Assembly: GCA_013329455.1 (NCBI GenBank)
Contig: DUKF01000098.1
Span: 1-10,640, forward strand
Direction of reading: 5' to 3'
Source: Methanotrichaceae archaeon
Lineage (GTDB): Archaea; Halobacteriota; Methanosarcinia; Methanotrichales; Methanotrichaceae
Length of the DNA: 10,640 nucleotides
Under the pieces are notes generated by a model, which was given only the letters and a program-made list of their open reading frames with translations, searched no databases and was not told the origin of the DNA. Position 1 is the first letter of the stretch; the number at the start of each line of letters is the position of its first letter. Both the position numbers and the translations under genes were made by a program. Shown here one piece after another: positions 1 to 9,090 of the stretch.

Positions 1-342
1 GATGTCCTCGTCTGCGACCCGCCAGCCCATGTGCGGCTTTCTTCCCATTAAAATCGTGTCGAAGACGGTCGTGGAGAGAACGCCCGTTGCGGACTGGGGC
101 ACGTACCCTATGTACCGAGCCACTTCACGCCTGCTCATGGACTCAACGTCGTTTCTGCCCAGTAATATGGTCCCCTCAGGCTTGAGGATCCCACAAATGC
201 ATTTGATCAGGGTGGTCTTTCCACATCCGTTGGGGCCCACCAGGCTCAGCACCTCTGAGTCGCCGACGGCTATGTCCAAGCCATTCAAGATCTTGTTGCC
301 GCCATAGCTGAAACTGAGACCCTCTATTGTGATCTTCAACAA
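1..342 (-). CDS. ABC transporter ATP-binding protein, FecE/BtuD type (partial, N-terminal part)
   Basis: Nucleotide-binding subunit of an importer of the iron-siderophore/cobalamin family, acting on the cytoplasmic face of the membrane with a FecD/BtuC-like permease. Only the first 114 codons are here; the C-terminus, with signature motif and Walker B, lies beyond the left edge. Visible are the Walker A loop GPNGCGKTT (residues 36-44), the Q-loop YVPQ (Q83), and the stretch TVFDTILMGRKPHMGW, typical of the FecE/BtuD group. The start is TTG at 342-340, because the frame has no ATG nearby and GAGGGG (349-354) lies 6 nt upstream; a second TTG follows directly. No permease or binding-protein gene lies upstream within the window, so any partners must lie to the left. 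The substrate (heme, siderophore, cobalamin) cannot be told from this part. Family is sure, substrate is not. Confidence 0.9.
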   Translation of the reverse strand, partial: MLKITIEGLSFSYGGNKILNGLDIAVGDSEVLSLVGPNGCGKTTLIKCICGILKPEGTILLGRNDVESMSRREVARYIGYVPQSATGVLSTTVFDTILMGRKPHMGWRVADEDI

Positions 343-784
343 TGCTCGCCCCTCACTCCGGGAATCTGACCCCGCGTTCCCGGGCCCTCAGTGGCGATAG
401 CAACAGGGAAGTTGAGGTGAACGAATCGCCAAGGGGTTTTCGGGAAAGGGTGCCGGAAGTCACATCTCTGATCACTGCCTCTGGTGTATGAACTTGTCGG
501 CTTAATACACACATTTTTTATGTCATAGTTTTTGTATCCTGTTACTGGAAGTCGCGCTCGACCAGCTGAAGTTGCAGTTGACTGGCGATACAGAGAAGGG
601 AAGTAAAGGGCGAATGAGACTAATGCCATGAGCTGCAAGGGCATCGGTCGATCCGAGGGCCCCCAACCCCAACACTCGGACGAGAGAAAGAGCGGGGTAA
701 CGGAGGAGAGATAAAGCTCATTCGAGAGCTTTCAGGGAGCGATTGGAGGAAGGTCAAGTCGTCGCCAATTTGCCCTCGCGTTAG
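343..784. other. Intergenic region without a recognisable gene
   Basis: About 440 bp between the ABC ATPase gene and the small membrane-protein gene, both on the minus strand. Apart from the hairpin at 358-383 I see no convincing gene. A 102-codon minus-strand frame (644-336) has no family motif and runs into the start of the ABC gene, so I do not call it. A T/A-rich patch near 510-535 may hold the promoter of the ABC gene, but no clear TATA box stands out. Confidence 0.5.
358..383 (-). promoter_or_regulatory. Inverted repeat in the leader of the FecE-type gene
   Basis: CCGGGAA (358-364) and TTCCCGG (377-383) form a perfect 7-bp inverted repeat with a 12-nt loop. It sits immediately upstream of the SD motif (349-354) of the ABC ATPase gene. 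As RNA it would form a GC-rich hairpin next to the ribosome binding site; as DNA it could be a dimeric operator. Function is inferred from position only. Confidence 0.35.
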
Positions 785-1189
785 TTAAATCTTGGTCGTC
801 CAAACAGCGAGGCCTCTTTTCAGTATGCAGTATCCGAGTATCATGGCCAGCCCCGCGCAGAAGGCCAGAACCCCCATGACCAGCAGTCCGAAGGTCAGGC
901 TTACATCCAGCCCCGCGGCTCTGGCGATGTTTGGGGATACTATCAGGGCGATGCCCGTAAGCAGGAGAAATAGGCCGCTCAATAGGCGCCTCTCGAGCCT
1001 GGCGTCTGGGGGCTCGTCATTGGAGACGCCCTTCTCCAGCAGGTACATTCGTCTCTTGTGATCCAAATAGTACACAAACGCCAAAAGAGCCAACCCTTCC
1101 GTCACCAGCATGACCAATGCTAAGTCTGTCACGTTTCCATCGCCCCAGTGGTTTATTTGTTCGCATCGAAGTAGATATTTTTTTCGCAT
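785..1189 (-). CDS. Small membrane protein with three predicted helices, unknown function
   Basis: Predicted 134-residue integral membrane protein. Hydrophobic segments at about 21-42, 69-88 and 97-123 are joined by a basic, charged loop (DHKRRMYLLEKG, then a run with EPPDARLERR). A helix followed by a basic motif ending in EKG resembles small bacterial and archaeal membrane proteins of the DUF6249 type, but this is weak and no function follows from it. The start is uncertain. ATG at 1189 has no SD motif but lies at a sensible distance from an AT-rich promoter near 1230-1260. GTG at 1132-1130 would begin just before the first helix and give 115 residues, also without a good SD. It is divergent from the chimeric transporter gene at 1316. 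Confidence 0.6.
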   Translation of the reverse strand: MRKKYLLRCEQINHWGDGNVTDLALVMLVTEGLALLAFVYYLDHKRRMYLLEKGVSNDEPPDARLERRLLSGLFLLLTGIALIVSPNIARAAGLDVSLTFGLLVMGVLAFCAGLAMILGYCILKRGLAVWTTKI

Positions 1190-1315
1190 TAACGATCAAT
1201 TTTGTTATGTTCAGAGTTTGATTTCTCATAATTATTTTATTTAATAATACTATATTCTATAAGATCGAAATAGTTATTAACAAATTAGACATTAGTCTGA
1301 TAATAGAGGTATTTC
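1190..1315. promoter_or_regulatory. AT-rich divergent promoter region
   Basis: A strongly AT-rich spacer between two divergent genes, with TATA-like runs around 1228-1262 (TTATTTAATAATACTATATT) that could serve either strand. The SD motif AGAGGT at 1305-1310 lies 5 nt before the ATG at 1316. Exact transcription starts cannot be fixed by eye. Confidence 0.45.
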
Positions 1316-1900
1316 ATGTTGAAAAAATATGCGACAAATATCCTTTGCATCGCCATGCTGTTGCTGCTTGTGCCGATGCCGGCGGCAGTGGCGGAGGACG
1401 TTCGATTGGTGATGCCCTTCTCCCCAGGCGACAGGCTCGATCCCGCCTTCGGCTACGTTGGATGGTACATGAGGCAAGCCGGGATCTACGAGACCCTCTT
1501 CAGCTACGATGAGGAGATGAAACTCGTTCCAGAACTTGCCACCGAATACGAGCTGGAAAGCGATACCGAGTGGATCATACATCTCAGAGAAGGCGTCAAG
1601 TTCCACGACGGCGCGCCTTTCAACGCCGATGCGGTGATGTACCGGGGCAAGATCCTGGAAATGGGAGAGACGAATGAAATTTTCAGTTATCCTAAGCATC
1701 CCTACGCTGAGCTGCTGATCGCCCCCAAGCTGCAAGAAGATCGTAGCCTTCAGGATGCTGAGATGAACGGTCAGAACGGTGATCTTCCTGGTTGCGTCTT
1801 TTATCCGCGATGCCCCTTCGCTGAAGATGTCTGTATTGAGAAGACGCCTGAAATGATCGAGATGAACAGAGATCACCAGGTTCTCTGCCACCTTGTCTGA
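1316..1900 (+). pseudogene. Chimeric remnant: binding-protein N-terminus fused in frame to oligopeptide-type ABC ATPase C-terminus
   Basis: An open 194-codon frame made of two unrelated parts. Residues 1-108 are the start of a family-5 (peptide/nickel) solute-binding protein: signal peptide ending AVA (about residue 26), then conserved segments LDPAFGY, AGIYETLF, LVPELAT and REGVKFHDGAPFNADAV. From about residue 109 the protein becomes the tail of a DppD/DppF/NikE-type ATPase: YRGKILEMGETNEIF, PKHPYAELL, and the oligo_HPY-like end with GCVFYPRCPFAEDVC and a final CH. The junction falls at codons 105-109 (1628-1642), where both families can encode an Ala-Val pair. Missing are most of the binding protein, both permeases, usually another ATPase, and all catalytic ATPase motifs. 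The start has a good SD (AGAGGT, spacing 5), so it may still be expressed, but it can neither bind substrate as a full SBP nor hydrolyse ATP. I infer an internal operon deletion. Confidence 0.85.
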
Positions 1901-2953: not shown

Positions 2954-3348
2954 CCTTTCCATAGATAAAAGATGAAAATAGTGATATGTCTCTAAACCGA
3001 TAAATCGAAACCATAACCCACCACTACTTCTGGAAACCGGGAAAAGGCCTTTTTCGATTCAAAGTCCCCCATAGTAGAAGTTCTTCCAACTTTCTTGAGA
3101 TTAGATTGTCCGGATTTTCCGGTGCAGAGCTATTAAAACAAGTAAACTTAAATAAGAGCAACTGAGTTTAATCAATTGTACTTACTATAAGCAAAAAAAT
3201 CCTTGTTTAAACGGTGTGAGCCATATGGAGGTATTTGAGATATCGAAGTACAAATTAATACAAATTATGGGTCTTCATTTTAACCTCGTATCTTCTGATG
3301 AATTTCATTAATGCCCCTTAAAATGCATTTTTAACTCTCAAATAGCTC

Positions 3349-3386
3349 TATATATATCTCTTGATTATTCATGGTGCGGGAGGTGG
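3349..3386 (+). promoter_or_regulatory. TATA box and SD of the broken NifH-like gene
   Basis: TATATATAT at 3349-3357 is followed by a strong SD, GGGAGGTGG, at 3378-3386. The nearest start in phase with a long open frame is TTG at 3396. Expression signals thus look intact although the coding part is damaged. The transcript would begin close to the SD. Confidence 0.5.
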
Positions 3387-3395
3387 CAGATAAGT

Positions 3396-3704
<309 letters not shown>

Positions 3705-9070: not shown

Positions 9071-9090
9071 TTCAGCCCAAAAGGGCTGAA
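9071..9090. terminator. Bidirectional hairpin terminator between the TRAM pair and mfnA
   Basis: TTCAGCCC (9071-9078), loop AAAA, GGGCTGAA (9083-9090) form a perfect 8-bp stem. Plus-strand reading continues into CCCCTTTATTTTCC. Minus-strand reading continues into CTATTTTTGATG. It lies between the converging TRAM and mfnA genes and can serve both. Confidence 0.7.

Follow-up and report, generated by a model that had tools for sequence, protein, structure and literature searches.

The operons of Nik/Opp/Dpp ABC importers comprise genes for a binding protein, two permeases and two ATPases. Deletion-fusion pseudogenes form a general class in which two genes of an operon are joined in frame after loss of the intervening DNA. 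The DppD and DppF ATPases of the Dpp importer carry an oligo_HPY/[4Fe-4S] domain. According to an excerpt of the E. coli study (PMC12136057), the [4Fe-4S] ligands of DppD are Cys284, Cys290, Cys297 and Cys315, the domain acts as an assembly part of the two ATPases, the importer owes stability to the clusters, and the complex comes apart upon Cys-to-Ser substitution.

We analyzed a 10,640-bp stretch of DNA from a methane-producing Methanotrichaceae archaeon (hereafter the window; G000:C48:1-10640). Its contig measures 10,867 bp and belongs to a MAG that comprises 273 contigs and is 81.5% complete. An open reading frame at 1316–1900 (+ strand) encodes a chimera of 194 aa, whose halves correspond to the first and the last gene of a Nik/Opp/Dpp operon with Opp2-type permeases. 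No description of this locus was found in titles or abstract openings of the literature. The sister genome used for comparison is that of Methanothrix harundinacea isolate UBA1 (G002, DAQG01000014.1), in which the locus (L024) is on contig C51 (15,428 bp); Methanocrinis harundinaceus is a name proposed for this species (excerpt of PMC10598746). The features of the window referred to below are the following.

785–1189, − strand: left flank, DUF6249-like gene (32.6 bits, just under the Pfam cut-off of 33); adjoins the operon in G002 too.
1187–1315, + strand: upstream region between the lost operon and the divergent DUF6249 gene, with AGAGGT before the ATG; from the alignment with G002.
1316–1633, + strand: binding-protein part, the first 106 codons, SBP_bac_5 (NikA/DppA-like), predicted signal peptide included; PF00496, 86% to G002.
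1631–1638, + strand: deletion junction, from a three-way comparison with G002.
1634–1900, + strand: ATPase part, the last 88 codons plus stop, DppF/NikE-like oligo_HPY tail; PF08352, TIGR01727.
1793–1888, + strand: Cys160-x5-Cys166-x6-Cys173-x17-Cys191, a pattern match to the ligand spacing of the E. coli DppD [4Fe-4S] cluster.
2011–2901, − strand: right flank, gene with a CBM96 match; adjoins the operon end in G002 too.

The first-pass annotation had read this frame as a signal peptide and the start of a family-5 binding protein running into the tail of a DppF/NikE-type ATPase, and the two-part coding was confirmed, with both Pfam domains found. SBP_bac_5 (PF00496) matches residues 69–109 above its cut-off (E = 2e-12) and is incomplete, with profile positions 1–42 of 368 only. 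The oligo_HPY domain (PF08352) is nearly full-length at residues 115–173 (E = 1.4e-11; 45 bits compared with a cut-off of 27.1), and the tail scores 67.3 with TIGR01727 of NCBIfam (cut-off 37.6). No match to ABC_tran was found in the chimera with Pfam, the ATPase part being oligo_HPY alone. The tail corresponds to the G002 ATPase from residue 221 onward; the Walker A, Walker B and signature motifs of that protein, as read from its sequence, presumably all precede this residue. The chimera thus lacks the nucleotide-binding domain of a DppF/NikE-type ATPase. Identity with the G002 binding protein is 86% over residues 1–108, where the N terminus reads as a signal peptide by its sequence, and the tail is 73% identical to its G002 counterpart and 88% to that of homologue P0005.

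In G002 the same locus holds a complete operon. This comparison, one of the checks suggested in the first-pass annotation, supports the single deletion of several kilobases proposed there, with its ends in the first and last genes of the operon. The G002 genes are those for the binding protein, a class I SAM methyltransferase, PermB, PermC, AtpD and AtpF, and both flanks are colinear between the window and G002. Window positions 370–1638 align to L024 14327–13059 (86%) and positions 1631–2775 to L024 7352–6172 (79%), with colinearity continuing to window position 9072; relative to G002, 5,714 bp are absent. Compared with a Nik/Opp/Dpp operon, the chimera keeps 106 and 88 codons of the outermost genes, while the permeases, the first ATPase and the nucleotide-binding domain of the second are gone. 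A relative thus keeps intact, at the corresponding place, the ancestral arrangement expected for a deletion-fusion pseudogene; from that class the chimera would differ only by its frame, presumably kept by chance.

The intact G002 form differs from the usual Nik/Opp/Dpp operon by its methyltransferase gene, which is also found within the operon in G018, G020 and G021 (L024, L025, L027 and L029 for the four genomes). Both G002 permeases score above the NCBIfam cut-offs for nickel-type proteins (Opp2B, 389.9 versus 350; Opp2C, 323 versus 300). The G002 binding protein gives its best score with the NikA model but is far under the cut-off (277.8 versus 600), and 'nickel-type' is therefore a lead, not a result. 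In the stretches of G018 and G021 that were examined, no ATPase pair was found beside the second permease; the ATPase genes may have been lost there or be supplied from elsewhere. A decayed copy of the operon's ATPase, in shifted pieces with a stop, is present in G020 (L028, G020:C174, 3607–4250, − strand), which also has an open full-length copy on contig C91. Two further differences concern the surroundings of the operon. The G002 FecE-like ATPase gene contains an insertion of ∼0.45 kb (window 128–136 versus L024 14695–15139); the 9 bases of window 128–136 match both sides of it, a possible target-site duplication. The G002 CBM96 gene contains a tandem repeat at L024 6040–6190 (coding unit 'NDTVTL'), which is much shorter in the window copy.

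The region upstream of the chimera (1187–1315) aligns to G002 with no inner gaps, being identical at 82 of the first 90 bases and 27 of the last 39, and we infer a promoter function for it. The reading frame is intact, as had been stated; the Shine-Dalgarno sequence, also called intact, is nearly so (AGAGGT here versus GGAGGT in G002). A promoter scan returned 2 sigma-70-like sites compared with 1.3 expected, under sigma-70 rules that are not applicable to archaea, and no terminator was found by the promoter/terminator scan.

Alignment with both G002 genes locates the join almost to the base. Position 1633 is the last base unique to the binding-protein gene, 1635 is the first unique to the ATPase gene, and 1634 is the single exactly ambiguous base. 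Matches per 20 bases to the binding-protein and ATPase genes, respectively, change from 18 versus 10 (1620–1639) to 5 versus 20 (1640–1659). The counts flip around 1633/1635, and the switch therefore spans about one codon, well inside the five codons first allowed for it. A shared Ala-Val coding stretch had been suggested at 1631–1636; Ala-Val is indeed encoded by the G002 ATPase gene, but the G002 binding-protein gene has Ala-Ala. When the two G002 sites are aligned in the register of the join, 6 of 8 bases agree (1631–1638), and short homology at the deletion sites is plausible from this comparison. The longest exact word common to the 200 bp around both sites is 7.

We searched for other proteins with the same two-part layout, a family of which had been named as refuting the proposed reading, and found none among the matches listed. 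In the protein search, PF00496 and PF08352 occur together in one of the 39 proteins listed, the chimera itself. A match to the chimera at E ≤ 0.001 was obtained in 31 of the 41 genomes searched; of the genome matches listed, the window's own locus is the only one that covers the query over its full length. The sequences of 27 of the 39 homologues were inspected, whereas only Pfam assignments and coverage were used to judge the other 12 (P0028–P0039). P0002 likewise has 194 aa and was considered as a second chimera, but its sequence proved to be a fragment of a normal binding protein.

The tail contains four cysteines, at residues 160, 166, 173 and 191, rather than the two first reported, and all are intact. 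Their x5, x6 and x17 spacing is the same as that of E. coli DppD (excerpt of PMC12136057). By sequence, Rv1281c and DppD are the best solved relatives of the tail, which is recognizably an oligo_HPY domain; [4Fe-4S] binding is putative, from motif and spacing only. The tail differs from the DppD/DppF domain in lacking the ATPase and in standing behind a predicted export signal. We know of no role for an oligo_HPY/[4Fe-4S] domain without an importer. Structure prediction of the chimera (alignment A1, 16 rows) gave a mean pLDDT of 42.8 and a pTM of 0.28, with no confident part. This low confidence may be caused by the thin, mixed alignment, and it therefore weighs little against function.

The rates of evolution of the two halves were compared with those of intact genes. 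dN/dS versus G002 is 0.11 for the binding-protein part and 0.31 for the tail, and 0.10–0.32 for six neighboring genes (CofH, 0.10). The chimera contains no stop or frameshift. Residue changes on the window and G002 branches number 3–4 versus 5 in the binding-protein part and 6 versus 3 in the tail. For the tail, with G020 as the outgroup, changes at the codon positions are 7/6/7 on the window branch versus 3/5/12, which hints at relaxation on the window branch, though the counts are too few to conclude. In protein trees the branches leading to the chimera, of 0.063 and 0.078, do not exceed those of intact relatives in length. With 20 random substitutions introduced, 49% of trials still had an open frame, and with 60, 12.5% did (400 trials each). 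A rough dating model, with inputs set by hand from substitution counts (9 and 22), limits the neutral share of the branch since the G002 split to at most about 0.1–0.2 for the binding-protein part, or 0.05 with a higher assumed background rate, and to about 0.2–0.3 for the tail, for which only shares above about 0.3–0.5 are disfavored. Since the halves evolve no faster than intact relatives, neutrality of the chimera would mean that the deletion is recent, and most of the divergence between the chimera and G002 may predate it. A recent neutral scar accounts for the rates, the trees and the open frame; long-kept constraint is also compatible with them.

Within the genus, the operon has met different fates. 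Among the eight other genomes, only G002 closely matches the binding-protein half of the chimera (E = 4e-61); in the other seven, the best match to any chimera part has E values of 1e-12 to 1e-9. The whole ATPase is 83% identical in G002, followed by G003 (64%) and G006 (63%), over part only; the matches in the latter two are at other loci, with distant permeases. G003 retains a 23-codon remnant of the end of the operon's ATPase (L077 11316–11387, − strand), immediately past the stop codon of a Kef-like gene (itself under NCBIfam cut-offs) and adjoining the CBM96 gene. This remnant is 82.6% identical to P0009 (E = 1.8e-10), and its DNA score was reached in 0 of 1000 simple shuffles. In G008 the DUF6249 gene lies next to the CBM96 gene without an intervening operon. 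No ATPase remnant was seen in the stretches of G001, G004, G005, G006, G007 and G008; a weak G008 hit (E = 0.048) is at another place, and an 81-bp DNA match in G007 falls inside another ABC ATPase gene. In G005 the contig breaks off within the CBM96 gene, and no CBM96 match was found in the G004 and G006 stretches, so these three provide little information. Protein P0012 (169 aa) has a start resembling the antisense of DUF6249 genes (50–72%, E = 1e-4 to 0.2, among the matches listed), followed by an ATPase tail, and may reflect another deletion of this operon, distinct from that in the window. Because it is known as a protein only, and its start resembles DUF6249 genes elsewhere more closely, it counts as a possible further case.

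The window also contains a NifH-family gene remnant at 3406–3591 (+ strand; PF00142 at 3406–3537, E = 5e-17, 44 of 271 profile positions). It sits in a stretch without a G002 match (3192–3605) and represents a second scar, at a distance of 1.5 kb from the chimera; a search of this MAG found no further DNA copy.

Given the entire operon still in place in G002, the ORF at 1316–1900 is very probably the residue of one 5.7-kb deletion, an ordinary if well-documented scar rather than a new gene. An assembler could in principle have bridged distant parts of an intact operon, and the fragmentation of the MAG into 273 contigs would allow for this, but we consider such an artefact most improbable. Within 200 bp, the surroundings of the G002 sites have no exact word longer than 7 in common, and a search with 5,971 operon bases did not find the missing 5.7 kb elsewhere in the 81.5%-complete MAG, returning the 263-bp tail at C48 and five short matches of 41–293 bp (66–88%; C93, C226 and C122). 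Furthermore, the chimera protein is recorded in 2 contigs, the longest of 38,816 bp; the contig here has 10,867 bp, so at least one record comes from another contig. Two contigs of different size argue against misassembly, although both may have been built on the same reads. A history in which the operon was never complete here, its fragments being joined otherwise (for example by two insertions) and the G002 operon being a later gain, has next to no probability. The adjacent DUF6249 and CBM96 genes of G008, and the weak matches to the chimera in seven of the eight other genomes, would be in line with it. Against it, the order and orientation of the fragments and both flanks agree with the first and last genes of G002, and a remnant of the last gene is present at the same locus in G003.

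The first-pass annotation had left two endings open, a fresh scar or a new exported peptide under selection. Rates no higher than in intact relatives fit the former. The latter, in which a useful secreted protein would carry the four-cysteine, [4Fe-4S]-type domain of the ATPase, found no positive support and is very unlikely. It could draw on the open frame, the retained upstream region, the low dN/dS and the intact cysteines. However, low dN/dS is expected under the rough model if the deletion is recent, a single such sequence is known (one of the 39 homologues among the matches listed), and in G003 the decay of this operon took a different course; the unconfident predicted fold adds little weight. 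In E. coli, moreover, the domain is an assembly part of DppD and DppF (excerpt of PMC12136057). We give equally slight credence to a broader speculation: that the chimera is expressed and exported, that the freed tail has an extramembrane role, such as metal or iron-sulfur binding in an anoxic setting, and that repeated operon loss seeds small secreted cysteine-rich proteins.

For the scar, we infer a single event in a Methanothrix/Methanocrinis lineage that would have removed 5.7 kb of a nickel/peptide-type uptake operon, joining codon 106 of its first gene to the last 88 codons of its last. Illegitimate (short-homology) end joining or replication slippage is the likely route, and the frame would have been retained by chance, at about one in three. 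With the upstream region and start codon retained, a secreted protein of a predicted ∼168 residues could be made. Since its binding-protein domain is incomplete and an ATP-binding site is absent, this protein most likely does nothing and is degraded.

As a protein, then, the chimera is most likely of no consequence. It cautions that a chimeric ORF may be intact and give two good Pfam matches and yet be a mere deletion scar. The locus displays operon loss cleanly and probably at an early stage: a single genus offers, at one locus, the intact form, an in-frame scar and another remnant. It may be of use for the study of importer loss in methanogens.
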